Source of the DNA: an uncultured Sediminicola sp.
GTDB lineage: Bacteria; Bacteroidota; Bacteroidia; Flavobacteriales; Flavobacteriaceae
DNA length: 52,187 bases
Direction of reading: 5' to 3'
Assembly (NCBI GenBank): GCA_938039345.1
Contig: CALHVB010000018.1
Coordinates: forward strand, 1-52,187
Positions 9,335 through 30,606 of the stretch are shown piece after piece. The position numbers and the translations under genes are program-made. Numbering within the stretch: position 1 is the first letter of the stretch; every line of letters starts with the position of its first letter. The notes beneath the pieces are model-generated. The model was not told the DNA's origin. It did not search any database and saw only the letters and a program-made list of their open reading frames with translations.

Positions 9335-10380
9335 TAAAATAAAAACGAAAATACTACCATAGTAACAATAGCCATTGGAATTATAAGCGCTGAAAACACA
9401 AAACCAGTTATACATGCCTTGTAAAAAGTTCTAAATTTACTCTCTTTATAGAATTTCTTTAATGAAATTATAAAATATACAAAAGTAGATAATACTAATA
9501 CCCAATCTATCCAATTAGGCACATCCCAAATAAAATTAGTTCCAATAACAAAACTGAAAACTAAAAAAACAAATGCAAAAAAGTAAAAACTAAATACTAA
9601 ATGATGCGCATAACTGCCTTTTTTCTTAAATAACATATTTATAATCAGAGCAAATATTGGTAATAAGAAAAATAATGCAATTGGTATTTCATTATAAAAA
9701 GTTTGTAGAATACTTCCTCCTTGTTTAGATTTATACAACCTTAGAGATTGACGATAAAAACGTTTTTCAAACCATCCATCGCCTTCCTTTCCCATTACTT
9801 TATAAATAACTTCCTCATCAGCATTTATAGCAATTAATGAATCTATTTCTTTTACAACATAATTCATTTTTAATAATTCATTATTTGTATTTGTAGGATT
9901 AGCCATAGAATCCATTTTCTTTTTTATAACATTCGGAATATATTTCTGTTGCTTTAAATTATTTTGATAATTAATATGTGTAATTGAATCTTTAATTGCT
10001 TGCTCTCTTACATCATCAATATTTAATACTGCACTACTACCTTTTTCGATAGCTTTGTTTAATCCAAAAACATGTTTTTTCTGAATAAAAGAAAACAAAA
10101 AGAAAAATACAACTGTACTAAATAAATACATTTTTGCTGGGTGTAGATACAGCATGCGTTTTCCGCTAATAAATTTAGAAGCTAAATAACCAGGCTTAAA
10201 TAATAAAGGGATTAAACTCCTAAAAAAACGAGCATCAAAAGATAAATAATTGCTTAGTGTATTATAAAATAAAATGCCTACTGTTAATTTTTCTATGGCT
10301 TGTTGCCCGCAAAAAGGACAAAATTTAAAATTTTCTTTAAATTGCTCTTCACAATTTTTACAGGTTACTAAATTCTTCAT
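9331..10380 (-). CDS. DUF3667 zinc-ribbon membrane protein
   Basis: 349 aa. An N-terminal zinc ribbon (C7-x2-C10 and C21-x2-C24 in TCKNC ... FCPFCG) is followed by a conserved block (FDARFFRSLIPLLFKPGYLASKF) and a membrane helix, then a soluble central part and about four C-terminal helices. This is the DUF3667 layout of Bacteroidota inner-membrane proteins of unknown role. The central soluble segment (about residues 105-215) is low in similarity to anything I know. Confidence 0.8.
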   Translation of the reverse strand: MKNLVTCKNCEEQFKENFKFCPFCGQQAIEKLTVGILFYNTLSNYLSFDARFFRSLIPLLFKPGYLASKFISGKRMLYLHPAKMYLFSTVVFFFLFSFIQKKHVFGLNKAIEKGSSAVLNIDDVREQAIKDSITHINYQNNLKQQKYIPNVIKKKMDSMANPTNTNNELLKMNYVVKEIDSLIAINADEEVIYKVMGKEGDGWFEKRFYRQSLRLYKSKQGGSILQTFYNEIPIALFFLLPIFALIINMLFKKKGSYAHHLVFSFYFFAFVFLVFSFVIGTNFIWDVPNWIDWVLVLSTFVYFIISLKKFYKESKFRTFYKACITGFVFSALIIPMAIVTMVVFSFLFY

Positions 10381-10430
10381 TAAAATAAATTAATGTCTCA
10401 AAGAAAAGTATTTAATTAAAATTAAAAAAA

Positions 10431-11582
10431 TTAATTATTAAGCATCTTATAACTTTCATCAATATAACTATAAAAATCTTCGGCATGTAAACTTCCGTTT
10501 TTTGCTTTACCTCTATGGTGCCCTAAACGAACGATAATAATATTATCTTCAGGTATACTAATTACATATTGCCCTAGTATACCACGCATATAGCTTATTT
10601 TTTTGCCTTTATAAGTCTCTAACCATAATCCATAACCATAATTAGCAGACTCTTTAAACCTTGGTTTCTGAGCTAGTACAGCTAATTCTTTAGGTATTAT
10701 TTGTTCTCCATTCCAATTTCCATTCTGAGACCATAAACGTCCAAACTTTGCAAAATCTCTGGCATTACTAGCAATACAACAAAAAGCTTTTTCCATTCCG
10801 CTTTCCTCACTATCTAACTGCCATTGTGCGTTTTGGTTCATCCCCATTGGTTTCCAAAAACTTTCACTTAAATAGTTTGTTAGTGTTTTTTCAGTAGCTT
10901 TTTCTATTACCATACCTAATAATTGTGTAGCTCCACTTAAATATTTATAAGATGTTCCTGGTTTTTCTACTACTTGTAAATCTAGTATTGTTTGTCTTAT
11001 ATTATCGGCATAATTAGCTCTTGCTGTTAATGAAAATGGACTAGAATAACTTTCTACCCAATTTAAGCCCGATGCCATGGAAGATAAATCTCCTACTGTA
11101 AGTTCTGCTACATATTCCCCTCCTATTTCGGGTAAAAAATCAGTAACAGGAGTATCTATACTTTCTATATAACCATCACCAATGGCTTTAAAAAGTAAAG
11201 CTGTAGTAATACTCTTTGCCATGGAAAAGGAATTTGTTTCACTTTGTGCACTGTACTCTTCTGCATAGTTTTCATACCATATTTTATTATCCTTTATAAT
11301 AAGAAAAGCTACTGTGCCTAATTCTTTATTTACAGCATTTAATCTTTTTGTTGATGTTATGGTATTATAGTCTGCATGATGTTTCCATTCTTTAATATTT
11401 CCATTCTCTATAGTACGTGTATCAAAATGTGGTGTATCGTCTATATAAGCTGTTTTATGTCCTGTTAAATATACAATACGAACTCCTCTTAAAATATACT
11501 CATAATCAAAAATGTAAAGTAAGATTACTAGTAAAGCTAAAAAAATACCTAGACCTTTTAAAAATTTTAAAAATCGTTTCAT
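10431..11582 (-). CDS. Membrane-anchored serine hydrolase (class C beta-lactamase family)
   Basis: 383 aa with an N-terminal anchor (residues 9-26) and a periplasmic beta-lactamase/transpeptidase-like domain. The nucleophile motif S-x-x-K is SMAK (S120-K123). The second motif Y-x-S is in YLSGATQLLG, matching YSNxGYxLLG of the family. Such proteins are usually esterases or peptidases rather than drug-hydrolysing enzymes; the substrate is unknown. Its start codon overlaps the stop of the upstream SRPBCC gene by four bases (ATGA), so the two are translationally coupled. Confidence 0.88.
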   Translation of the reverse strand: MKRFLKFLKGLGIFLALLVILLYIFDYEYILRGVRIVYLTGHKTAYIDDTPHFDTRTIENGNIKEWKHHADYNTITSTKRLNAVNKELGTVAFLIIKDNKIWYENYAEEYSAQSETNSFSMAKSITTALLFKAIGDGYIESIDTPVTDFLPEIGGEYVAELTVGDLSSMASGLNWVESYSSPFSLTARANYADNIRQTILDLQVVEKPGTSYKYLSGATQLLGMVIEKATEKTLTNYLSESFWKPMGMNQNAQWQLDSEESGMEKAFCCIASNARDFAKFGRLWSQNGNWNGEQIIPKELAVLAQKPRFKESANYGYGLWLETYKGKKISYMRGILGQYVISIPEDNIIIVRLGHHRGKAKNGSLHAEDFYSYIDESYKMLNN

Positions 11583-12070
11583 TTTAAATTATTGTTTGTT
11601 GCTACTAAAGGTATCCATTTATTAGATTCTGAATAATCTTTAATGGTTTGGTTTCTTTTTTCTAGCAAATTCTTCATGTATTTTTCAAGAAATAGTTTAT
11701 CTGCTATGACTCCTAAAATACCTAAAGGAGATTCATAATCAAATATATCTATCATTTCTGTTGCAGTACCAACTTTATTAAAAATATGCTGATGTTTAAA
11801 CCTTTTAAAAGTTCCACTAATCATCTCATCCACAAAATAATTGGGAGCATTATAGGCTGTAATTTTAGAAGTTAATACCTGGTAAAAACCAAAGTGTTTG
11901 GCTTTCCAAGTTACAGATTGGTTTAGTCCTATTAATCCTCTTGTAATACCATCTATAGCTTCTTCATCTGTATGTTTGGTAGATATTTTGTGTAAATCAA
12001 TACTTCTAGATAAATCAAATACAATTCCCCTATTGGCATTTATAATCGTTTTTAATTTAATCTTTGGCAT
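11579..12070 (-). CDS. SRPBCC (START/Bet v1-like) family protein
   Basis: 163 aa, starting MPKIKLKTIINANRGIVFDLSRSIDLHKIS, the usual first strand and helix of the SRPBCC ligand-binding fold. The later stretch FKRFKHQHIFNKVGTATEMIDIFDYESP fits the polyketide-cyclase-like subgroup sometimes misnamed 'cell division inhibitor'. It probably binds a small hydrophobic ligand. It is the first gene of a pair with the serine hydrolase, overlapping by four bases, and lies about 40 bases after the GNAT gene. Confidence 0.8.
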   Translation of the reverse strand: MPKIKLKTIINANRGIVFDLSRSIDLHKISTKHTDEEAIDGITRGLIGLNQSVTWKAKHFGFYQVLTSKITAYNAPNYFVDEMISGTFKRFKHQHIFNKVGTATEMIDIFDYESPLGILGVIADKLFLEKYMKNLLEKRNQTIKDYSESNKWIPLVATNNNLK

Positions 12071-12108
12071 TAGTTTTTAATATGTAATAACGGTTTTAAA
12101 TTTCTAAT

Positions 12109-12564
12109 CTAATTTAGTTCTTTCTCAAAACAGATACTATTTTCTGCCTTTATATATTCCCCAAAATTGGGAATCGTTTTGTAATTATTCTTTTTATAAA
12201 ATCCAATGGCGTATGGTTTATCTTTAAGCGTTTCTAGGATACATTTTTTAAAATTAAGCTCAATAGCCCATTTTTCTAATTCATTTAACACTAGTGTTGC
12301 AATTCCTTTTCCTCTATAAGTAGGCTTAATATACATTCTTTTAATTTCTACTGCTTTAGGAGAATATTCTTTAATTCCTCCACAACCAACTGGGTTTTGC
12401 TCTTCATCATAAACAATAACTGTATACTTTATTTTATCAATAGCATTTAGTTCTCCATAGAAAGAAGTTTCTTCTTTATAATATATTTCTAAATCTAAGT
12501 CTAATTCTCTAATCAATTTTTGGAAATCTATATGACTAGAATCTGCCCTTTTTATACTTACCAT
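12109..12564 (-). CDS. GNAT family N-acetyltransferase
   Basis: 151 aa with the acetyl-CoA-binding motif A region (MYIKPTYRGKGIATLVLNELEKWA; R/Q-x-x-G-x-G/A seen as RGKGIA) and the motif B strand-helix (CILETLKDKPYAIGFYKKNNYK). The substrate cannot be predicted. It is the first gene of a probable three-gene minus-strand run with the SRPBCC and serine hydrolase genes. Confidence 0.9.
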   Translation of the reverse strand: MVSIKRADSSHIDFQKLIRELDLDLEIYYKEETSFYGELNAIDKIKYTVIVYDEEQNPVGCGGIKEYSPKAVEIKRMYIKPTYRGKGIATLVLNELEKWAIELNFKKCILETLKDKPYAIGFYKKNNYKTIPNFGEYIKAENSICFEKELN

Positions 12565-12743
12565 TTTTTATGTTGTATAATATTAATTGCTCCTTATTAT
12601 ACCCTAAAAATAAACCAATAAATAAGCTATTAGACAAAAAACTATGAAAAAATACCCTAGAAAATAGAAGTTTTATATCCTAAATATAAAAAACAGAAAA
12701 AACCAAATAGCTTAAACACCTAATAATCAGTAGTTTTATTTTT

Positions 12744-12760
12744 TTGGCACGCTGTTTGTA
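12744..12760 (+). promoter_or_regulatory. Sigma-54 (RpoN) type -24/-12 promoter
   Basis: TTGGCACG, four bases, then TTGTA, compared with the consensus TTGGCACG-N4-TTGCW: every position matches except C to T in the -12 dinucleotide. The predicted start of transcription is near 12771, giving a leader of about 44 bases before the ATG at 12815. The TAnnTTTG housekeeping element is not matched here (TATACTTTG has one base too many). Confidence 0.6.
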
Positions 12761-12814
12761 ATATACTTTGCAAGTGTGACTATTTCCACTTGATAATTTT
12801 TAAAACCTTATATC

Positions 12815-14005
12815 ATGAAAAATTTAATACTCCTTTTTACAGCCCTTATTTTTGGTGCTCAGAGTACTATGGCTAATACAGTAGATGATAAGGTTGCAAT
12901 CCGCAATGCTTATAACTACAATAACTCATTTATTTTTGTAGAAAACGGCATTACGTTTTCAGTTTACCCAGATGGTGAATTTGATTTTTATATAGAGAAT
13001 AGATCTAGATTTAGTGCTAATGCAAACTTTAATAATGTAAGTATTACTTATAATTCTGGATACGATTATAACGCTTACGTACAGTATGATGATTATGGAG
13101 CGGTAATACAAGTAGAAAATGTTCCTGTATACTACGATTATTACGGTCGTGTAGCAACAATAGGTAATATAGATGTACGCTACGTAAACAACAGAGTAAA
13201 TCGTGTTGGTGGTTTAAATGTATATTATAATAGAGGTGTGTATAGCCACTGTAATGGATATATAAATGATTTTAACAGACGTTATGTATACAGACCTTTT
13301 CATAGATACTTTGCAAGACCAGCTGTTAATCTTTGTCTTGTAAACTACAGACCTTACAGAAGGTATTATACGCCAATACGTTATAGCTATTATAGACCTT
13401 ATAGAAATAACTTTAGAAGATCTTATGCTAAAATTGGTCACCGTTACAACTATAATAATAGATCTCATTATAAAAGAGAAAAAATTTATAGAAATGATAA
13501 AAGAGCTGTAGCTCGTGATTATAGAAGCAACAGAAGTGATGGTTACAGAAAGTCTAACGCTAATTATAGAAGTAATAGAACTGATGGATACAGAACATCT
13601 AATATCAAAAACACTAGAGATAACAGAGCCGTAACTCGTAGTTCTGATTATAATAGAAAAAACGATTATAGAAGTTCTACTATAAAAAATAGTAACTACC
13701 ATAAAGGTGAAACTACTAGATACACAAAGTCTCCTACACAAAGAACTGTGACTAAAAGAGAAGTAACTAGAACCCCTGGTAATACTACTATAAAAAGAAG
13801 CACTACTACATATAGAAAACCTGTAGTAAAAAATAATAATAGAGCCGTAACAAGTACTACTAGAACACAGAGAACTGTTACTCCAAGAGCTACTACTCCT
13901 AGTAGAAGCTATAGAAGCTCAGGTGCCACTAGAAGTTCGCAAAGAACAGTTAGTGCACCACAAAGAAGTAAAACTACTACTTCTACATACAGAAGTCGTA
14001 GATAA
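12815..14005 (+). CDS. Secreted Tyr/Arg-rich basic protein
   Basis: 396 aa. A Sec signal peptide (MKNLILLFTALIFGAQSTMA) precedes an ordered N-terminal domain rich in Tyr, Asn and beta-type sequence with the core FVENGITFSVYPDGEFDFY (about residues 41-59). A long, very basic, low-complexity tail follows from about residue 160, rich in Arg, Tyr, Ser, Thr and Asn, with imperfect repeats of the form NYRSNR-T/S-DGYR. Similar architecture (globular N-domain plus basic disordered tail) occurs in Flavobacteriia proteins of unknown function. The tail would bind polyanions such as LPS, DNA or polysaccharide; this is inference. A sigma-54-like promoter precedes it. Confidence 0.85.
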   Translation: MKNLILLFTALIFGAQSTMANTVDDKVAIRNAYNYNNSFIFVENGITFSVYPDGEFDFYIENRSRFSANANFNNVSITYNSGYDYNAYVQYDDYGAVIQVENVPVYYDYYGRVATIGNIDVRYVNNRVNRVGGLNVYYNRGVYSHCNGYINDFNRRYVYRPFHRYFARPAVNLCLVNYRPYRRYYTPIRYSYYRPYRNNFRRSYAKIGHRYNYNNRSHYKREKIYRNDKRAVARDYRSNRSDGYRKSNANYRSNRTDGYRTSNIKNTRDNRAVTRSSDYNRKNDYRSSTIKNSNYHKGETTRYTKSPTQRTVTKREVTRTPGNTTIKRSTTTYRKPVVKNNNRAVTSTTRTQRTVTPRATTPSRSYRSSGATRSSQRTVSAPQRSKTTTSTYRSRR

Positions 14006-22000: not shown

Positions 22001-22001
22001 A

Positions 22002-22034
22002 AAAACCTCGGAGCATACCTCCGAGGTTTTCTTT
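22002..22034. terminator. Bidirectional terminator
   Basis: AAAACCTCGGAG / CTCCGAGGTTTT stem (12 bp, loop CATAC, 22002-22030) with T tracts in both directions. It separates the GNAT gene from the catabolic operon that ends at 22057. Confidence 0.93.
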
Positions 22035-22056
22035 TAAATTTTTAATTGACAGTTCT

Positions 22057-23514
22057 CTATTCTGAATAGTCCATATATATGGTTCTTTTTTGTAAATGGT
22101 CTTCTATACCATAAACTCCATCTTCACCACCTACTCCAGATGTTTTGTGCCCAGAGTGGTATCCTTGTATATAACCTACAATATGCTTATTAATAAATAT
22201 AGTTCCTACTTGTAGCTGGTCTATTGCTTTTTGGTGTCGTTTATAATCGTTTGTATACAAATAAGCAGACAAACCTTCTTCTCTTGCATTAGAATAAGCC
22301 ATAGCCTCTTCAAAACCAGAAACTTTCATTATGGGTAATACAGGCGCAAATAACTCGTGCTTGGTGGTTGCATCTCCGTTTTTAACATTAGTTAAAACTG
22401 TTGGCTCGTACCAATTTCCATTTTCAAATATCTCTCCATCTGGGCGCTTACCTCCTAAAACCAATTCTGCTCCTTCAGCTATATTATCCTTTACCAACTG
22501 ATCTACTCTATCCAAACCTTGTCTACTTACATTAGGCCCCATATTAGTGTTAGAGTCAAACGGGTTACCCGTTTTTATTTGTTGTACTCGTTTTATTAAT
22601 TTATCGATAAACTCGTCTGCCACCTTCTCATCTACCATTACCATTTCATTACAAATACATACCTGTCCACAGTTAGCGTATCTAGAAATTACGGCAGATT
22701 CTACCGCTTTATCTATATCAGCATCGTCGCAAACAATAAATGGTGCTTTACCTCCTAATTCTAAAATTAATCCTGTAATATTATTTGCACTTGCACGGTA
22801 CATAGCTCTACCAGCATTTGTACTACCCGTTAAGCTAATTAATTTGGTAATAGGACTTTCTACTAACAACGAGGCAGCCGCAGCGCTTTTAGTAGCAACC
22901 ATATTAACTACACCATTAGGCAAACCAGCATTTGCTACTAAACGACAAAATTCTGATGCCGTAGTTGGTGTTAATTCATGTGGTTTTATAATAATTGTAT
23001 TTCCTGTTGCCAAAGCAGGTCCTAATTTACGACCTATTAAAGCTAATGGGTAATTATAAGCACACAAAGCTACCATAACCCCATAAGGAACCTTATATAT
23101 TGTTAGCCTTTCATTTACATTATCTGATGGAAAAACTGCCCCTTGTATTCTTCTTGCTGCTTCTGCTGCATAGGTCATATAACGAACAGTATCATCTACC
23201 TCTCCTAAAGCTTCGGTATATGTTTTTCCTTGCTCCAAAACTAAAAGCTTAGCAAAGTGTTCTCTTTCTAATTTTAAGCGATCACTAATTGCATAAATAT
23301 AATTTGCACGAGTTTGTGCTGGTAATAACTGCCACGATAATTGTGCTTTTTCTGAAGTTTCTAAAGCATATTGAACATCATCTGCATTACATGCGGTTAC
23401 GGTAGCGAAAACTTCGTTATTTGCTGGGTTTTGAACATCAATCGCTTCTCTTTTTGAAGCATCTAACCATTCACCATTTATATAACAGCCATAATTTTTA
23501 ATTTCTTGACTCAT
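22057..23514 (-). CDS. NAD-dependent aldehyde dehydrogenase (AldA-like)
   Basis: 485 aa, ALDH superfamily. Visible residues: oxyanion Asn154 (AYNYP), the NAD-binding segment [13 protein letters not shown], general base E252 (LELGGKAP) and nucleophile C286 (CGQVC). The C-terminus ([27 protein letters not shown]) is closest in memory to E. coli lactaldehyde dehydrogenase AldA, so it probably oxidises a short hydroxy- or semialdehyde to the acid. It is the last gene of the five-gene operon starting at 27772 (19-base gap) and would supply an acid for CoA transfer or oxidise a cleavage product. Confidence 0.93.
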
Positions 23515-23533
23515 ATATTACTTTTTAAATTTC

Positions 23534-24316
23534 TTATTTATAATTAGGTGTTCTCTTTTCTACAAAAGCAGTAAAACCTTCTTTTGCATCAGGAGTATCA
23601 TACAAAGTATTCACCAATTCTGTTTCTAAATCTAACGATTCCTGCAATTTTAAGCCTTTATGTTGTTGTACATACTTTTTAATTGCACTCATAGCTTCCC
23701 CTGCTCCTTTTGCTAAATTATTTGCATAATCCTTAACCTCTTTCTCAAATGATTCTTGATCATAAAGCTGATTAAACAAACCATAATCATAGGCTTTCTG
23801 TGGAGAAATATTATTTCCTGTTACTAGTAACTCCATAGCCCTACTTGCCCCAATTAAATCTATTAAACGAGGAGTACCACCATTTCCTGGCATTAATCCT
23901 AATTTTACTTCTGGCAAGCCAACCAAATAATTTCCTTTACTAGCTAATCGTATATCGCAAGCCATAATCATTTCTAAACCTCCTCCTAAAACGTGCCCGC
24001 TAATGGCGGCTAATACTATTTTGCTACTAGAAACTATAGCATTTGTAAGCTCGCGAGCTGCTTTTACCATTTCTGTATTCTGCGCTGTTGTATTGGTGCT
24101 AAATATTTTTATATCTGCCCCTGCACAAAAGAAATTTTCTGAAGTACTATTTATTAATATAACTTTTATAGTAGTATCTGCACTAAGGTTATTTATAGTT
24201 TTACTAATTAATTTTAAAAAATCATAATAGTAACTATTAGCAGGTGGCCTATTTAAACTAATAGTGGCCACGCTACTTTCTTTTTTTATTATTAAAAATG
24301 TTGATACATCACTCAT
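23534..24316 (-). CDS. Enoyl-CoA hydratase/isomerase (crotonase family)
   Basis: 260 aa. The crotonase core is clear: oxyanion-hole segments CAGADIK (about 64-70) and ISGHVLGGGLEM (about 105-116), and both hydratase glutamates in place (E115 in GGGLEM and E136 in LPEVKLGLMPG). Two glutamates argue for a true syn-hydratase or retro-aldol member rather than a one-Glu isomerase. It is co-transcribed with the CoA-transferases (six-base gap), so it most likely hydrates an unsaturated acyl-CoA made by them. Confidence 0.92.
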   Translation of the reverse strand: MSDVSTFLIIKKESSVATISLNRPPANSYYYDFLKLISKTINNLSADTTIKVILINSTSENFFCAGADIKIFSTNTTAQNTEMVKAARELTNAIVSSSKIVLAAISGHVLGGGLEMIMACDIRLASKGNYLVGLPEVKLGLMPGNGGTPRLIDLIGASRAMELLVTGNNISPQKAYDYGLFNQLYDQESFEKEVKDYANNLAKGAGEAMSAIKKYVQQHKGLKLQESLDLETELVNTLYDTPDAKEGFTAFVEKRTPNYK

Positions 24317-24322
24317 AAAACC

Positions 24323-25474
24323 CTAATTACTACTATAAAATTCTTGATTAATTGCTTCTGTATGCTCTCCTAATTTTGGCGTTCCAATTTCAGATGTTAA
24401 CCAAGCTCCATTTACCTGTATTGGGCAACGAGTTGTTTTAAAAGTATAACCATCACTCATGTTTACTTCTTGTATCATCTCTAAAATTTTAAAAGCTTCT
24501 TTATCAAACAAAGTTTTCCAATCCATTATCTCTGCACACCAAATATCCGCAGGTTCCAAAATATACAACCAATATTTTGTTTCTTTCTGTTTTAAATGAT
24601 TGGCTAAAATATTTTTTATCTCATCTCGTTTTGTAAACCAACTTTCTGGCTCGGGATAATTTGTTAATTCTAAACAACCCAACAACTCCCCTAAAAACGG
24701 AATAGACCCCATGGCTAAAGCAATATTTCCATTTTTTGTGGCATATATACCATAAGGCGCTCCCAAATATGCATGAGCAGAATTTGTTTTTGGTCTTACA
24801 GTGAGTGCTCCTCCGTCTCTAAAAAAACAAGTTACAGATTCAAACTGATATTCTAAAGCAGATTCTAACATACTTACTGCTACACTACCACCAATACCTT
24901 TTATTTGTTTTCTATACAAACAGGCTAATATTCCTTGGGTTAGGTGTGCTCCAGATAAAATATCTACTACAGCTAAACCAATAGGTACAGGTCCTGCTCC
25001 TTCATTACCATTTAATTGTGTAAGTCCAGATACAGATTGTATTAATAAGTCTAATCCAGGCTTGTTTTTCCATATGCCTTCTTTCCCATAACCCGATAAT
25101 TCTGCATAAATAATTCCTGAATTTATAGATTGAATAGTTTTTTGGTCTATTCCTAATTTTTCTACAACACCAGGTCTATAATTATGTATTAATACATCTG
25201 CCTTTTCTATAAGTTTATATACTTTTTTTCGTGCTTCAGGAGATTTCATATCAGCAACATAACTCTCCTTATTCCTATTGATGGCATGAAACATAGAGGA
25301 CTCTCCGTTCATAACTACATTAGAACAATAAAGCTTTCTACAACTGTCTCCTATTATTGGTTTTTCTATCTTAATAACTCTAGCTCCTAAATCTGCTAAC
25401 CGCAAACTTGCTGAGGGTCCCGATAAATACTGACTAAAATCTATAACTAGCATTCCTTCTAGTGGTTTTTCCAT
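24323..25474 (-). CDS. Type III (CaiB/BaiF) CoA-transferase, subunit 1
   Basis: 383 aa. It starts KPLEGMLVIDFSQYLSGPSASLRLADLGARVIKIE, the family signature, and carries the catalytic aspartate D171 (AVVDILSGAHL), aligned by eye with Asp169 of formyl-CoA transferase. The family moves CoA between carboxylic acids via an aspartyl-anhydride/thioester. It begins two bases after the stop of the neighbouring paralogue. Tandem CaiB genes often make heteromeric enzymes, as in benzylsuccinate and succinyl-CoA:malate CoA-transferases. Acid substrate unknown. Confidence 0.92.
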   Translation of the reverse strand: MEKPLEGMLVIDFSQYLSGPSASLRLADLGARVIKIEKPIIGDSCRKLYCSNVVMNGESSMFHAINRNKESYVADMKSPEARKKVYKLIEKADVLIHNYRPGVVEKLGIDQKTIQSINSGIIYAELSGYGKEGIWKNKPGLDLLIQSVSGLTQLNGNEGAGPVPIGLAVVDILSGAHLTQGILACLYRKQIKGIGGSVAVSMLESALEYQFESVTCFFRDGGALTVRPKTNSAHAYLGAPYGIYATKNGNIALAMGSIPFLGELLGCLELTNYPEPESWFTKRDEIKNILANHLKQKETKYWLYILEPADIWCAEIMDWKTLFDKEAFKILEMIQEVNMSDGYTFKTTRCPIQVNGAWLTSEIGTPKLGEHTEAINQEFYSSN

Positions 25475-25476
25475 GC

Positions 25477-26622
25477 TTAATTTAGATTAAATTCTTTATC
25501 AATTAAAACATTATCTTCTCCCACTTTTGGTGCTGATTTTTCATTAAAAATACGTGCCCCATCAATCCTAATTGGACAACGTGTTGTTTTCATTTTAATA
25601 CCATCAGAAGTTACTACTTCTTGGTCCATTTTAAGTACTTTATAAGCTTCATGATTTAAAAAGGTTTTATAATCGTAAACATCTGCTACACGAAAATCTA
25701 AGGGCTCAAAAATAGCAAGCCAATGTTGTGTAGTTTCTTGTACCAAATAGCCTTGTAAAAAACTCATAATAGCATCTTTTTCTGTATACCACGTTTTTTT
25801 ATCTAAAAACTGACTAGGTAAAGTAATTCCCATAGCGTTTACTAATACATCTAAAGGAGTTAATGCTATAGCTATATAGCCATCTTTTGTTGCGTAAATT
25901 CCATAAGGAGCTCCTACATATGCATGTGCATTTCCTTTCTCTGCTCTTTTTGGCTGTTGGTTACCATCATTTAAATATGTAGTTAATAACTCAAACTGAA
26001 TATCTAACGTAGATTCTAATAAGCTTACTTCTACTTTTGCTCCCTTATTTGTTTTATTTCTACTTATTAGTGCTGCTAAAATACCTTGTACCAAGTGCAC
26101 TCCTGTAAAAATATCTGAAGTAGCTAAACCGCTTGCTGTAGGGGTATCTTCTTTATTTCCCGATAAATTTACAAAACCAGATAAAGATTGTATTAATAAA
26201 TCTTGTCCTGGTTTTTTTGCCCAAGGCCCCACAGGTCCGTAACCAGATACAACTCCATATATTATTTTAGGGTTAATAGCATGTACAGTATCATAATCTA
26301 AGCCTATTTTCTCCATTACTCCTGGGCGAAAATTATGAGTCATTACGTCTGCATGGGCTATTAATTTCTTTACCTTTTCTAAATCTTCTTTATCTTTTAA
26401 GTTTGCTGCATAGGATTGTTTATTTCTATTGGCAGTATGAAACACCATACTACTCTCATCTATAAACAGATTTTTTAGTGCAATTTGTCTCCCCGCTTCT
26501 CCCGTTTGTGGACGCTCAATTTTTATAACCTTAGCTCCTAAATCAGCCATTTTTAATCCTGCTGAAGGGCCTGCCATAAACTGAGCAAACTCTAAAACAG
26601 TTATTCCTTCTAATGGTAACAT
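25477..26622 (-). CDS. Type III (CaiB/BaiF) CoA-transferase, subunit 2
   Basis: 381 aa paralogue of the gene at 24323, starting LPLEGITVLEFAQFMAGPSAGLKMADLGAKVIKIE. The catalytic aspartate is D170 (ATSDIFTGVHL). Unlike many heteromeric pairs in which one subunit is degenerate, both paralogues here keep the aspartate. Thus either both are active on different acids, or they form a dimer with two active sites. It is ten bases downstream of the solute-binding-fold gene and two bases upstream of its sister gene. Confidence 0.92.
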   Translation of the reverse strand: MLPLEGITVLEFAQFMAGPSAGLKMADLGAKVIKIERPQTGEAGRQIALKNLFIDESSMVFHTANRNKQSYAANLKDKEDLEKVKKLIAHADVMTHNFRPGVMEKIGLDYDTVHAINPKIIYGVVSGYGPVGPWAKKPGQDLLIQSLSGFVNLSGNKEDTPTASGLATSDIFTGVHLVQGILAALISRNKTNKGAKVEVSLLESTLDIQFELLTTYLNDGNQQPKRAEKGNAHAYVGAPYGIYATKDGYIAIALTPLDVLVNAMGITLPSQFLDKKTWYTEKDAIMSFLQGYLVQETTQHWLAIFEPLDFRVADVYDYKTFLNHEAYKVLKMDQEVVTSDGIKMKTTRCPIRIDGARIFNEKSAPKVGEDNVLIDKEFNLN

Positions 26623-26632
26623 AGATTATATA

Positions 26633-27772
26633 TTACAGTTGAATTGATTCTTTGTATAATTTATTTAGTGTACTTAATACACTCTTAGCTTCTCCTCCAT
26701 TCTTCATATACGCTCTAATAGGTGCCCCTGCATTGTCTTGAAAAAACATATGTCCATGGTAACGTGGACGCAAAAACGACCTATCTAAAGCTGGCAAAGT
26801 ATCTTTAAAAAAGTTTGTACATGCTGCATTTGTTTCTGTATTTGTCCATGCAGAACGGTGTCCTGGTTGCCCTCCATTATTAAAAAACACACCTACTTGT
26901 GCTTCTGGTGATGCAACATATGCGGCATATTTTAATGCAATTTCTTGGTGTTTACTACTTGCCGAAATTGCCAAGCCTGTACCTCCTAAAGTAGTAATTA
27001 ACTTTTGATGGTTAATACTTACCATATCATGAAACTTTAATAATTCTCTAGCATATCCTTTACGAGAATAATTTGTATACCCATACGCAAATGGCGAATA
27101 ACTATATTTATCACCTAAAGTCATTGCTTCATATACCTTAATTGGGTTCATATCATAACATTCATCATCTATATATTGCCCTAGATCTCTTAGCATTTCT
27201 AAAGCTTTAACACCTGTTTCATCTGATACAAAATATTCTTTTGTTGCTGCTACATCTTCTCCTAATGTACAGCATACCATGTAAAAACTCATAAGGATAT
27301 CTTGAGGTATTCCTGGTATTGCAACTTTACCTTGCTTGGCCAAATTAATTAAATCTTCCCATGTTTGTGGTAAAACCGGCAATAAATCGGGCCTACTTGC
27401 GGCTACAGGAGTTGCCGCATCTATTGCTAAAGCACTTTGATAGCCATTAAAACAATAACTTTCGTGTGATTTACCAACTGAATTATTCGCTTGGTCATCT
27501 AAAAATGATTTTGATAAATGCTCGTTTAACGGAATAATAACACCTGTACGGGCAGCAAAACCAGCCCAAGGATGGTCAATAATTAGTAAATCATAGCGCT
27601 TAGCTAATTCATTTATTGGTTCATCTGCAAATGCTTGTAATGATCGTTTTTCCCACGTAATTTCTACATTTGGATTTAGCTCATGAAAACGTTGTGCTGT
27701 AGCTACTACAGATGTAAATCCCCTACTATGGTTCCAAGTTATCCCTTTTAATTGTATTGTATTGGTACTCAC
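26633..27772 (-). CDS. Solute-binding-fold protein without signal peptide
   Basis: 379 aa with the family 1 extracellular solute-binding fold: KGITWNHSRGFTSVVATAQRF and NPNVEITWEKRSLQAF at the start, YDLLIIDHPWAG, a central PQTWEDLINLAKQ segment and a late SPEAQVGVFFNNGGQPGHR block. There is no signal peptide or lipobox: the coding start leads directly into the first strand. No ABC permease or ATPase lies nearby. Instead it is the first gene of a CoA-ester operon. I recall signal-less relatives beside CaiB genes in Proteobacteria. It is therefore probably a cytoplasmic binding protein or a binding-fold enzyme (compare MqnA/MqnD and THI5), not a transporter part. Confidence 0.85.
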   Translation of the reverse strand: MSTNTIQLKGITWNHSRGFTSVVATAQRFHELNPNVEITWEKRSLQAFADEPINELAKRYDLLIIDHPWAGFAARTGVIIPLNEHLSKSFLDDQANNSVGKSHESYCFNGYQSALAIDAATPVAASRPDLLPVLPQTWEDLINLAKQGKVAIPGIPQDILMSFYMVCCTLGEDVAATKEYFVSDETGVKALEMLRDLGQYIDDECYDMNPIKVYEAMTLGDKYSYSPFAYGYTNYSRKGYARELLKFHDMVSINHQKLITTLGGTGLAISASSKHQEIALKYAAYVASPEAQVGVFFNNGGQPGHRSAWTNTETNAACTNFFKDTLPALDRSFLRPRYHGHMFFQDNAGAPIRAYMKNGGEAKSVLSTLNKLYKESIQL

Positions 27773-27833
27773 TATAAATATCTTATTCTTAATTATTTAA
27801 TCTATGCTCAACACATATTTAACATTCATATAC

Positions 27834-27852
27834 AAATATATACTTTATATTT
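27834..27852. promoter_or_regulatory. Possible IclR operator in the divergent promoter region
   Basis: AAATATA-TACTT-TATATTT is a 19-bp inverted repeat placed between the divergent operon and the IclR gene. The region is so AT-rich that such repeats arise by chance, so this is tentative. Confidence 0.25.
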
Positions 27853-27880
27853 AAATTAAAATTTAATCTTTAAAATCAAT

Positions 27881-27888
27881 TATATTTG
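27881..27888 (+). promoter_or_regulatory. -7 promoter element for the IclR gene
   Basis: TATATTTG, an exact match to TAnnTTTG, 20 bases before the ATG at 27909. Confidence 0.45.
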
Positions 27889-27908
27889 ATATTTAATACT
27901 AATTAGGC

Positions 27909-28667
27909 ATGAGTAAATATTCGGCACCTGCTTTAGAAAAAGGTTTACAAATTTTAGAATATCTATCGCATAAAGCTATACCACAATCTCAAATAGAAAT
28001 TGCCCAGGGTATTGGGAAATCTCCTAATGAAATTTACCGTATGCTAACCGTGTTAGAGCAAAAAGATTATTTAATAAAATCTACTTCTGGCAAGTATTCT
28101 ATTTCTCTTAAACTATACCATTTATCTCATAGGCATAGCCCTATAAATGGACTATTAAAAATAGCCAAACCATATATGGAAGAGCTCGCCAATAAAACAA
28201 AGCAATCTTGCCATATGGGTATTTTATATAATGGGCAATTAATGATAATATCGCAAATACAAAGTCCTGGACCTGTTTCTTTGTCTATTGAAGAAGGTAG
28301 CCTATTTCCGCTAATTAAAACAACCTCTGGCAGAGTTATACTTGCATTTACAGAAACTAAAAAGCAGAAAGACATATTATCAAAAGATTCTTTATTTAAA
28401 ACAATGAGCAGTAAAGAGAAAGAAACTTTTTTTGCTAGGCTAGAGACTATTAAAACACGAGGTTACGAACTAAAAAACAGTGATTTAACTATGGGAGTAA
28501 CAGATATTGGTATACCCATAGGCATACCAAATAGTAATATTTTTAGTGTTTTAACTATATCTAGTTTAGCGTCTATTGACCAAGAAAATGAAGCTGGAGA
28601 GTTTTTAATTCAAAGTTTAAAAGAAACTTCTAATCTAATTAATACGGCTTTAAAAATACAAGGCTAA
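27909..28667 (+). CDS. IclR family transcriptional regulator
   Basis: 252 aa. The N-terminal winged helix-turn-helix (SAPALEKGLQILEYLSHK, with recognition region GKSPNEIYRMLTVLEQKDYL) is followed by the IclR effector domain from about residue 80 (SCHMGILYNGQLMIISQIQ; GSLFPLIKTTSGRVILAF; TRGYELKNSDLTMGVTDIGIPI). IclR proteins usually regulate adjacent catabolic genes in response to a pathway metabolite. This one is divergent from the CoA-transferase operon with 136 bp between, so it is the likely local regulator. Its stop overlaps the stop of the convergent GNAT gene by four bases. Confidence 0.93.
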   Translation: MSKYSAPALEKGLQILEYLSHKAIPQSQIEIAQGIGKSPNEIYRMLTVLEQKDYLIKSTSGKYSISLKLYHLSHRHSPINGLLKIAKPYMEELANKTKQSCHMGILYNGQLMIISQIQSPGPVSLSIEEGSLFPLIKTTSGRVILAFTETKKQKDILSKDSLFKTMSSKEKETFFARLETIKTRGYELKNSDLTMGVTDIGIPIGIPNSNIFSVLTISSLASIDQENEAGEFLIQSLKETSNLINTALKIQG

Positions 28668-29107
28668 ACATCCCAAAAAAAGCGCTCTTTATTTTTAGCC
28701 TCTGCTCCTATTTTCTTATAAAAATTGATAGCATTTGTATTAAAGTTTGGGGTTTGCCATTGAATCATTTTACAATCTTGAGCTTTAGCATAGGCTTTTA
28801 TTTCTTCCATAATTCGAAAACCTATTCCTTTACCTCGAGTATCTTCTTTTAAAAAAAGGCAATCTAAATACACATAATAATTTGCATTCCAAGTAGAAAA
28901 TTGTTTAAAAAATGTAGCATAACCTACTAGTTCTTTTTCTTCTTCTACCACCAAACATTGTATACAACTATCTTCTTTAAAAAGATATTTAGATAATAAT
29001 CCTTCCTTATCATTATCCTCAAAGTTAACTTGTTCAAATGCGGCATGTAATCTACACAACTCAATAATCTGCTTTAAATCTTTTTCAACAGCAAACCTAA
29101 TTTTCAT
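28664..29107 (-). CDS. GNAT family N-acetyltransferase
   Basis: 147 aa with motif A (DCLFLKEDTRGKGIGFRIMEEIKAYA; R-G-K-G-I-G) and motif B (MIQWQTPNFNTNAINFYKKIGA). It resembles the diamine/amino-acid GNAT subgroup that starts IRFAVEKDLKQIIELCRLHAAFE. It lies 12 bases after the rhodanese gene and is probably co-transcribed with it. Confidence 0.9.
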   Translation of the reverse strand: MKIRFAVEKDLKQIIELCRLHAAFEQVNFEDNDKEGLLSKYLFKEDSCIQCLVVEEEKELVGYATFFKQFSTWNANYYVYLDCLFLKEDTRGKGIGFRIMEEIKAYAKAQDCKMIQWQTPNFNTNAINFYKKIGAEAKNKERFFWDV

Positions 29108-29119
29108 AATTATTAATTT

Positions 29120-29512
29120 TTAACAAGCACATTGCATTTGTTGCCCTTTTGTTAGTTCAGTTCCCTTGGTAGCATAGCCATCCAATTTCCACCACTCTAA
29201 ACCGCCAATTAGTTCTTTAACCTTAAAACCAAGTTTTGCCATGTTTAAAGCTCCTTTAGTTGATGCGTTACAACCAATACCATCGCAATAACAAATATAA
29301 GTTTTTGTTTTATCAAATTGTTTTGTTGTTTCCACCGTCATTTCTTTGTGTGGTAAATTAATAGCCGTAGGTATATGTTCCTTTTCATAACCAAATGCTT
29401 TTCTAGCATCTATAATCACAATAGCTTCATTATTTTCGAGTGCACTAAATAAATCTGAAGGATCCATTTCGTAAGCTAACTTGTTTTCGTAATATTCAAT
29501 TTGATTTTTCAT
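29120..29512 (-). CDS. Single-domain rhodanese-like protein
   Basis: 130 aa. The rhodanese fold is recognisable from IIDARKAFGYEKEHIPTAINLPH, the active-site loop ICYCDGIGCNAST and the closing LIGGLEWWKLDGY. The loop has two cysteines in YCDGIGC, so the persulfide-carrying residue is either of them. The arginine usual in the CxxxxR(S/T) loop is absent, as in the subfamily with CWGPGCNGAT. An extra C-terminal tail ends QMQCAC. Probably a sulfur carrier or transferase. It is divergent from a LysR regulator with a MetR-like site between them. Confidence 0.88.
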   Translation of the reverse strand: MKNQIEYYENKLAYEMDPSDLFSALENNEAIVIIDARKAFGYEKEHIPTAINLPHKEMTVETTKQFDKTKTYICYCDGIGCNASTKGALNMAKLGFKVKELIGGLEWWKLDGYATKGTELTKGQQMQCAC

Positions 29513-29597
29513 ATTATTTAAATTTTAAGTTTCAACAATATTACTTAGAACATAAGCCAATAAAAAAATTTAAAACTGAATGATTTTTAATCTTAAC

Positions 29598-29610
29598 TGA
29601 AAAATATTCA
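29598..29610. promoter_or_regulatory. MetR-like LysR binding site
   Basis: TGAAAAATATTCA matches the TGAA-N5-TTCA consensus known for the LysR-type regulator MetR. It lies between the divergent rhodanese and LysR genes, 37 bases before the regulator's ATG. Confidence 0.45.
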
Positions 29611-29646
29611 ATTAGTACTTCCTGGTTTTATTTTAACTTTACACTT

Positions 29647-30537
29647 ATGGAATTAAAATATTTTAAGCTTATAAAAACAATAGCAGATGAAGGGAGTATT
29701 GCCAATTCTTCTGAAAAATTATTTTTAACCCAATCTGCTCTTAGTCATCAGCTTAAAGAATTAGAACAACAGCTTGGGTTTAAAGTATTTCATAGATCCA
29801 GAAATAAATGGAAACTTACAGAAGAAGGTGCTGAGTTAAATAGTTTAGGAAATACAGTTCTTAACAATATAGAAAAAGGATTTAAAAATATAGAACAAAT
29901 AAGAAGTGGTTCCGTTGGATCTATAAAAATAAGTACTGAGTGCTATTCTTTTTACCAAGGACTTCCAGGATTTATACAAAAAATGGGACTATTATACCCA
30001 GATATTAAGGTTGATTTAATTCTTGAAGCTACACACCAACCTATTTCAAAAATTTTATCGAATGATATAGATATGGCAATTGTTAGCACTAAACCCGCTA
30101 ACGATTTATTATCTTATACTGAGATTTTTGAAGATGAAATTTATGCTATTATGCATAATGAAAACCCTTTGAATAAATTAGATTTTTTAGAAGCTAGTCA
30201 TTTTTCTAATGTACATTTAATTATCCATTCTTTTCCTTTAGAAACAGTATCTGTATACGAGCAATTTTTAAAACCGAATAATGTAACACCTATTAAACTT
30301 TCTGCTGTACCACTAACAGAAGTGGCTTTAGAAATGGTACATGCGAATATGGGGCTTATGTGTATGCCTAAATGGGCTTTAAAATCTTTTCACCTATCTA
30401 ATGACCTTATTTTTAAAAGAATTAAAAAAAATGGACTAAAGCGTACCCACTATTTGGTAACCAAAGAAGAAAATACAAGTAAAAAATACATTCGCGATTT
30501 TATTTCTTCTTTTCAAGAAGACTTTTCTATCGCATAA
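29647..30537 (+). CDS. LysR family transcriptional regulator
   Basis: 296 aa. The N-terminal winged HTH (ELKYFKLIKTIADEGSIANSSEKLFLTQSALSHQLKELEQQLGFKVFHR in outline, residues 2-50) is followed by the LysR effector domain (SVGSIKISTECYSFY ... ILEATHQPISKILSNDIDMAIVS). HTH and effector-domain wording are reminiscent of MetR, the homocysteine-responsive regulator of sulfur metabolism. It is divergent from a rhodanese/GNAT pair with a TGAA-N5-TTCA site in between, so it probably regulates itself and those genes. Confidence 0.92.
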   Translation: MELKYFKLIKTIADEGSIANSSEKLFLTQSALSHQLKELEQQLGFKVFHRSRNKWKLTEEGAELNSLGNTVLNNIEKGFKNIEQIRSGSVGSIKISTECYSFYQGLPGFIQKMGLLYPDIKVDLILEATHQPISKILSNDIDMAIVSTKPANDLLSYTEIFEDEIYAIMHNENPLNKLDFLEASHFSNVHLIIHSFPLETVSVYEQFLKPNNVTPIKLSAVPLTEVALEMVHANMGLMCMPKWALKSFHLSNDLIFKRIKKNGLKRTHYLVTKEENTSKKYIRDFISSFQEDFSIA

Positions 30538-30550
30538 CCATTTCTTTAAA

Positions 30551-30585
30551 ACAAAAAATCCCAAATGCTAAGCACTTGGGATTGT
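30551..30585. terminator. Bidirectional terminator between lysR and the acyltransferase gene
   Basis: AATCCCAAATGC / GCACTTGGGATT stem (30557-30583; one mismatch on one strand, a G-U pair on the other) preceded by an A run, which gives a T tract on the minus strand. Confidence 0.8.
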
Positions 30586-30606
30586 ATTTACTATTCTATA
30601 GAAGAT

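Follow-up and report, generated by a model that had tools for sequence, protein, structure and literature searches.

Carnitine is dehydrated by a family III CoA-transferase (CaiB) together with a crotonase (CaiD), and BbsEF is a heteromeric CoA-transferase of the same family. Sugar-acid dehydratases of the enolase-superfamily and IlvD/EDD types are known. A five-gene operon was analysed in a stretch of 52,187 nucleotides from an uncultured Sediminicola sp. (contig CALHVB010000018.1), the whole of which is called the window. The operon encodes a solute-binding-fold protein (SBP1), two CaiB-type CoA-transferases (CaiB1 and CaiB2), a crotonase and an aldehyde dehydrogenase (ALDH). It may form a CoA-dependent sugar-acid dehydration module on a CaiB/CaiD-like principle, a reading that we give an even chance.

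For 3,6-anhydro-L-galactose (L-AHG), the gene order alcohol dehydrogenase (ADH), KduD, ALDH, cycloisomerase is given in Aquimarina ERC-38 (PMC10163077, Table 2). ADH and KduD convert 2-keto-3-deoxy-L-galactonate (KDGal) via 2,5-diketo-3-deoxy-L-galactonate into 2-keto-3-deoxygluconate (PMC10163077, annotation; PMC5943477); the available parts of PMC9706016 and PMC9147760 deal with the first two L-AHG steps only. In Klebsiella michiganensis, a CoA-bound sugar acid was proposed in the oxidation of deoxyribonate (PMC6365646).

The window operon shares features with each of these systems. Like the carnitine pair it combines a family III CoA-transferase with a crotonase and possibly a CoA cycle around a beta-hydroxy acid, but it has two CaiB proteins, a binding-fold protein and a sugar context, and its CaiB proteins score 88.7 and 95.4 bits with the NCBIfam L-carnitine CoA-transferase, below the cut-off of 413. 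Two adjacent CaiB-type genes are found in both BbsEF and the window; here both copies retain the catalytic aspartate, and they may form a heteromer. The Klebsiella route likewise proposes CoA activation of a sugar acid, but by the available account it uses a CoA-synthetase, a dehydrogenase and a thiolase, with neither CaiB-crotonase dehydration nor a binding-fold protein. With the L-AHG pathway (AHG dehydrogenase, anhydrogalactonate cycloisomerase, KDGal 5-dehydrogenase and KduD) the module has the same ALDH superfamily in common, and RhaT-family transporters and an IclR regulator occur at both kinds of loci; the place of the cycloisomerase is taken by SBP1, a CaiB pair and either a crotonase or MaoC. 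Dimethylsulfoniopropionate chemistry of the DddD type was dropped given the sugar context and the lack of a fused double CaiB. An earlier note on this DNA knew of no characterised pathway with this gene combination. The search of the open-licence literature agrees, with no account of the operon found; a term search of the available parts of PMC5613140, PMC5698469 and PMC6581685 gave no mention of it.

Conservation of the operon and of the twin CoA-transferases

Of 236 SBP1 relatives found in genome contigs, the best 80 were compared. The nearest belongs to an uncultured Cellulophaga, with an SBP1 97% identical to that of the window. CaiB1 and CaiB2 lie downstream of SBP1 on the same strand in 79 of the 80. 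In an even sample of Bacteroidota, SBP1 was present in 19 of 392 genomes, with CaiB adjacent in 18 of the 19 loci. The arrangement is therefore beyond chance, and the search for the neighbourhood across genomes, suggested by the earlier note, returned a recurrent module.

In type A, the type of the window, SBP1-CaiB-CaiB is followed by crotonase and ALDH. This exact five-gene order was found by tblastn in 24 of the 80 loci (17 under a stricter frame-based rule), and in five further loci crotonase and ALDH are located just upstream instead. A glycoside hydrolase family 2 (GH2) enzyme is often encoded nearby, a RhaT-family transporter sometimes. In type B, SBP1-CaiB-CaiB is followed by a second solute-binding-fold protein (SBP2, in 42 of the 80 loci) and a Gfo/Idh oxidoreductase, and many of these loci have RhaT-family genes upstream. 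ADH is added in 14 type B loci, most of which also carry a KduD-like short-chain dehydrogenase/reductase (SDR) and MaoC. The two CaiB genes flank a MaoC gene in five loci (L043, L044, L055, L058 and L067). When two Bacteroidota plasmid loci were included, tblastn detected an enoyl-CoA hydratase (ECH) or MaoC in 74 of 82 loci and an MR/MLE or FucD match in five. A DUF6786 protein also recurs near the module, at L080:7843-9039 and in eight other loci (Gilvimarinus, Marinimicrobium, Flammeovirga and one Flavivirga).

The CoA_transf_3 domain covers both window CaiB proteins over their full length, and 9fn0 was among the structure matches of both. Residues were counted in the window and in the 77 of the 80 loci with two CaiB frames called on the plus strand; the catalytic aspartate was kept in 78 of 78 sequences for CaiB1 and in 78 of 78 for CaiB2. 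In a tree built by a quick method from 81 proteins (33 of the 80 loci, the window and 13 plasmid proteins), CaiB1 and CaiB2 formed two separate groups of 34 rows each, both with an SH-aLRT support of 98. Five plasmid proteins (from L090, L091, L096 and L099, and one of Croceibacterium L100) grouped beside CaiB2 with a support of 86. The two clades thus indicate that the pair is an old duplication kept together, inherited by descent or as a unit.

Proposed exchange with the enolase-superfamily step of L-AHG operons

An L-AHG-type operon is present in the nearest genome (G001, L167:362-7927) and in a Zobellia (G019, L166:5606-13566), both of which also have a type A operon. It encodes ADH, a KduD-like SDR, ALDH, an MR/MLE enzyme, a mutarotase and a RhaT-family protein, with IclR upstream; in Zobellia a frame of 475 residues is located between SDR and ALDH. 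The SDR proteins have KduD as best NCBIfam match (316 and 319 bits, cut-off 338.85).

Among 395 genomes of the family searched, 45 encode an ADH resembling KDGal 5-dehydrogenase, at 46 places in all (threshold 1e-130); identity is 76-93%, the query itself excepted. Its surroundings were scored for 44 places plus L166 and L167, within flanks of about 10 kb or as far as the contig reached. MR/MLE alone was adjacent at 36 places, the CoA module alone at three, neither at seven and both at none. At the three places (L182, L184 and L191), ADH and KduD are part of the module operon, in the order RhaT-SBP1-CaiB-CaiB-SBP2-Gfo-ADH-KduD-MaoC, and the two proteins are 87-90% and 79-82% identical, respectively, to those of the L-AHG-type operon. 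L-AHG operons and type B modules thus have the same ADH-KduD pair. Similarly, the five SBP1 loci that have an MR/MLE or FucD match include none of the 14 with the ADH cluster; the organisms of these 14 loci and of the three places overlap.

Judged from these gene neighbourhoods, the same downstream enzymes would thus be fed either by ALDH and an enolase-superfamily enzyme or by Gfo/Idh and the CoA module, and the simplest reading is that both routes yield the same 2-keto-3-deoxy acid. As MR/MLE and the CoA module never occur together beside ADH-KduD, our reading is that the module takes the place of the enolase-type step.

The type A operon of the window has neither ADH nor KduD. For genomes with a crotonase at the SBP1 locus, ADH is encoded outside the operon in 23 of 27 (51-93% identity, L016 included), on other contigs or sometimes about 10-30 kb away. 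It was at least 79% identical in all 11 Flavobacteriaceae among the 27, counted by name, against 45 of 395 genomes in the family sample.

A solute-binding fold without export signal

The fold-search matches listed for SBP1 comprise sugar-binding proteins and constructs fused to maltose-binding protein, giving it a binding-protein fold with sugar-binding relatives. MqnA, MqnD and THI5 are enzymes on binding-protein folds; they were not among the matches listed, families beyond that list being possible. The GTG start is preceded by eight sense codons, none of them ATG, GTG or TTG, and before these by an in-frame TAA. The N-terminal 12-residue hydropathy maximum is 0.58, versus 2.37-2.76 in four true ABC binding proteins treated in the same way; a fifth, with a short annotated start, gave 0.77. 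No convincing signal peptide was seen in 103 loci with an SBP1 relative, some of them duplicates and a few with uncertain starts, and a Pfam scan of nine genes at 22057-30537 found no ABC permease or ATPase. The view that SBP1 has neither signal peptide nor ABC partners nearby is borne out by these results. SBP1 thereby differs from the CUT1 ABC sugar-binding proteins (LpqY, TMBP, MalE3, SmoF), which it resembles in fold: it has no signal peptide, no cognate permeases were seen, and CoA-transferases are its constant neighbours. SBP2 also is without signal (hydropathy 0.07-1.16; example L031:13606-14838).

As a check for exported homologues, permeases were sought in the nearest genome; of the three found, one resembles the NtrB/TauC type, one ModB, and one is unassigned. 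A PF13416 search of that genome as proof of no other binding protein was dropped, since it missed SBP1 itself. The Zobellia genome (L110, L113; contig 16) encodes a distant protein of the same Pfam family with a lipoprotein-like signal and ABC partners; this protein differs from SBP1, which in that genome has neither. ABC importers are found near SBP1 in four plasmid loci, where they own a separate binding protein, signal-bearing in three cases and with a short annotated start in the fourth.

Over 51 sequences, 35-84% identical to the window protein, 59 columns are invariant, including H15, R17, R43, D66, H67, D118, R335 and R337; several of the invariant positions fall in regions alignable with ordinary sugar-binding proteins. 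The N-terminal motif GxTWxHxRG (T sometimes A) is found in Bacteroidota, Alpha- and Gammaproteobacteria. SBP1 is the best conserved of the five proteins in all five type A loci below 68% identity, and in 5 of the 17 type A loci compared overall.

Sugar context and plasmid loci

By Pfam, the recurrent neighbours of the module include an agarase-type carbohydrate-binding module protein with a GH42 match, GH2, alpha-L-fucosidase, GH106 and RhaT-family transporters. In L015, L019, L042, L044, L048 and L058, genes for cytochrome P450, ferredoxin, ferredoxin reductase, an esterase and a zinc ADH are located near the module; the first three were Pfam-checked in L015 and the esterase in L042, and the zinc ADH is a sequence reading. 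Formosa and Zobellia have this gene set as their cluster for 6-O-methylgalactose of porphyran, a polymer made up chiefly of L-galactose-6-sulfate and either galactose or anhydrogalactose (PMC10033563). The cluster genes adjoin modules of both types. Type B neighbours include a PF10282 lactonase (7 of 82 loci) and an RraA aldolase (3 of 82). Relatives of Pedobacter and Hymenobacter type have the module beside GH106; it is therefore not bound to a single sugar. Two neighbour labels, GH16 (c22; in Pfam only a secretion tail) and FucP (c15; only MFS_1), were guesses and were not used as evidence. For the marine-type modules, the neighbouring genes point to red-algal sugars. The best guess for the substrate of the window operon is L-galactose from porphyran, although we hold this as doubtful; no bacterial L-galactose route was found described in the open-licence literature searched.

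An SBP1 relative is carried by 145 plasmid records, mostly Alphaproteobacteria by name. In 17 Proteobacterial plasmid loci examined, CaiB was present in all and a crotonase or MaoC in 15; eight further loci scored alongside them (L109-L116) do not lie on plasmids and are outside this count. The order in Sinorhizobium medicae is Gfo/Idh, isomerase, mutarotase, SDR, CaiB, SBP1, crotonase, ABC importer. A TRAP importer comes ahead of CaiB, crotonase and SBP1 in Rhizobium Q54, and on a Methylobacterium nodulans plasmid (L105:10324-14720) the genes for MaoC, CaiB, SBP1 and an AMP-binding protein directly follow one another; the TRAP importer and the AMP-binding protein point to acids. Genes for PdxA and a four-carbon acid sugar kinase are also found near the Methylobacterium module.

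Component genes of the window operon

The coordinates of the features are collected in Table 1. ORF coordinates confirm five genes in one direction, separated by 10, 2, 6 and 19 bases, with IclR in divergent orientation. None of the five is an MR/MLE gene.

Table 1. Features of the operon and its surroundings (window positions).
Feature	Position	Strand	Basis
SBP1, cytoplasmic CUT1-type solute-binding-fold protein, GTG start, N-terminal GITWNHSRG	26633..27772	-	Pfam SBP_bac_8/SBP_bac_1
CaiB1, family III CoA-transferase, catalytic D170	25477..26622	-	Pfam CoA_transf_3, alignment, tree
CaiB2, family III CoA-transferase, catalytic D171	24323..25474	-	Pfam CoA_transf_3, alignment, tree
Crotonase-family hydratase/dehydratase, E115 and E136	23534..24316	-	Pfam ECH_1, alignment
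Aldehyde dehydrogenase (ALDH), C286/E252, nearest solved relatives 3k2w and 6j75	22057..23514	-	Pfam Aldedh
IclR-family regulator, divergent	27909..28667	+	Pfam IclR; best NCBIfam PcaR/PcaU, BhcR, KdgR, all below cut-off
136 bases between SBP1 and IclR, presumably the divergent promoter/operator	27773..27908	.	
8,606-base block: operon, IclR, GNAT, rhodanese, LysR	22001..30606	.	absent from three congeners

No protein of the operon reaches the cut-off of any NCBIfam family among the best 25 matches listed, and SBP1 has no match at 1e-3. The crotonase scores 212 bits (cut-off 313); its second-best solved relative is the 3-hydroxypropionyl-CoA dehydratase 5zai, and both glutamates are present in 41 of 41 aligned sequences. 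The intact catalytic residues described earlier for CaiB and crotonase were thus recovered across the relatives. In the ALDH, C286 and E252 are present in 38 of 38 aligned sequences. The ALDH reaches 460 bits with PRK10090.1 (cut-off 500), which we take to be the E. coli AldA type. Against solved structures it scores 451 bits with 3k2w (presumably from Pseudoalteromonas atlantica), 436 with 6j75 and 351 with 2opx (aldehyde dehydrogenase A, presumably from E. coli). PMC10163077 takes 6j75 as its reference for L-AHG dehydrogenase. The D-AHG dehydrogenase of Zobellia was at first annotated as a lactaldehyde dehydrogenase (PMC5698469).

Proposed mechanism and alternatives

An aldose from red-algal galactan would enter the cell and be oxidised to the aldonate by the ALDH. 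The aldonate would then receive CoA through the CaiB pair, the donor probably being the CoA-bound product, and CoA would thus cycle; with the CoA of the product passed to the next substrate, no ATP would be needed. In the aldonyl-CoA, the thioester would acidify the C2 hydrogen, and the crotonase (MaoC in sister loci) would eliminate the C3 oxygen beta to the thioester, giving an enol, that is the 2-keto-3-deoxy acyl-CoA, and hence the 2-keto-3-deoxy acid. This acid would join the known route via KDGal 5-dehydrogenase, encoded outside the operon in most genomes of the window type, and then KduD. SBP1 would bind the sugar acid in the cytoplasm as a partner of the CoA-transferases, serving either as a carrier subunit or as an enzyme. 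The elimination chemistry being the same, crotonase and MaoC should be interchangeable in principle, as the loci show. The 3R-forming domain of PaaZ is presumably MaoC-like, and it may be speculated that the choice between crotonase and MaoC reflects the stereochemistry at C3. PMC9007349 contrasts hydratases that form 3S products with the PaaZ domain, whose products are 3R; the available part of that paper has nothing on the SBP1-CaiB module. The fullest version of the proposal, a CoA-thioester aldonate dehydratase with the SBP fold as obligate, possibly catalytic CoA-transferase subunit, replacing enolase-superfamily enzymes in an L-galactose route, is tentative and clearly less probable than the dehydration module as such.

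Several observations weigh against this proposal. Every mechanistic step is inferred from gene content, residues, conservation, co-occurrence and the gene swap. The direct swap concerns three of 46 places, all of type B with MaoC and none of the window's type A. An agar diet of the hosts may be the sole reason why type A and L-AHG genes occur together, and the window ALDH shares only 46-47% identity with its counterparts in the L-AHG-type operons (G001, G019). ADH is missing in four of the 27 crotonase-type genomes (two Neiella, two Vibrio) and in all five genomes of Pedobacter/Hymenobacter type, so the product must be handled otherwise there. Neither ECH nor MaoC was found in 8 of 82 loci, some of them cut by contig ends. 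In L016 (Flavobacterium sp. UMI-01, 10001-13600) SBP1 is followed by crotonase and ALDH, with no CaiB in the 21-kb locus. Among the plasmids, the modules of two Shinella, Roseibium and Nitratireductor lie amid L-fucose-type genes including an annotated L-fuconate dehydratase, and an MR/MLE or FucD match was found in 8 of the 17 loci; the module is therefore not the sole dehydratase there, which does not agree with plain replacement, and a general rule that MR/MLE is absent breaks down in Alphaproteobacteria. In four Alphaproteobacterial loci, SBP1 (58-65%) ranks last of the five proteins in conservation. As a separate observation, L016 has Gfo/Idh and MaoC genes further up from SBP1.

The Alphaproteobacterial loci are also an argument for a CoA module that acts after cleavage of the sugar skeleton: lactate or glycerate from L-fucose, L-rhamnose or L-galactose would be loaded with CoA and dehydrated or cleaved, with the ALDH as lactaldehyde or glyceraldehyde dehydrogenase. 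There, the L-fuconate dehydratase stands beside CaiB, SBP1 and MaoC, two of the four loci also have an FAH-family hydrolase, and the score of the window ALDH with PRK10090.1 is in line with such a role. However, alternation of the module and MR/MLE beside ADH-KduD is left unexplained, as is the sugar-binding fold, and alpha-hydroxy thioesters such as lactoyl-CoA are poor crotonase substrates. We regard cleavage before CoA loading as unlikely. Rather improbable is the pathway of the earlier note, in which an organic acid is activated by CoA transfer, hydrated by the crotonase and finished by the ALDH. Family content and intact catalytic residues speak for it; the context across the 80 relatives is sugar utilisation, which disfavours an organic acid as substrate. 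The ALDH is nearest to sugar-aldehyde dehydrogenases such as those of anhydrogalactose, which act first, so the order of steps was probably reversed, and dehydration by the crotonase fits better than hydration.

SBP1 itself may be the key enzyme, for instance a lyase, tautomerase or lactonase with the sugar acid or the corresponding CoA ester as substrate; this would be a compatible variant of the dehydration module. This is possible, though we would not expect it: the invariant columns and the conservation in the most divergent type A loci favour it, but the first rank in conservation holds in a minority of the type A loci and is reversed in Alphaproteobacteria, and several invariant positions align with ordinary sugar-binding proteins. 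The argument that SBP1 is generally slow-evolving and hence an enzyme was dropped on these counts. Least probable is a sensor or decayed transport protein, non-catalytic and carried along by inheritance of the operon, since the N-terminal motif and the CaiB adjacency are kept across Bacteroidota, Alpha- and Gammaproteobacteria and a second signal-less protein, SBP2, is so frequent. For the dehydration module, the conclusion is that the genes appear to form a dedicated catabolic operon with a cytoplasmic binding-fold protein and twin CoA-transferases, as first described, and that the earlier interpretation was right in parts and probably wrong on substrate class and step order.

An accessory block in the genus

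The operon is part of a block that was gained or lost and that also holds the genes for IclR, GNAT, rhodanese and LysR proteins. Where the window has 8,606 bases, three congeners (G012, G003 and G006; L168, L169 and L171) have 57, 57 and 85 bases between the flanking genes, stop codons counted; in two more (G004 and G007) the neighbour is another gene. G004 has a rearranged type A operon elsewhere, in the order crotonase-ALDH-SBP1-CaiB-CaiB (L173:5656-11477). Synteny holds in other genera, though three of five congeners examined lack the block, and SBP1 occurs in 2 of 18 genomes of the genus. The idea that the block is unique to the window was rejected, as the nearest relative (L010) carries it.

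Significance

If the proposal is true, the operon would represent another route of sugar-acid dehydration, one that borrows fatty-acid chemistry, and it would suggest how porphyran degraders handle L-galactose. It would also provide a first function for a widespread family of cytoplasmic proteins with a binding-protein fold, which are labelled as ABC transport components in databases.

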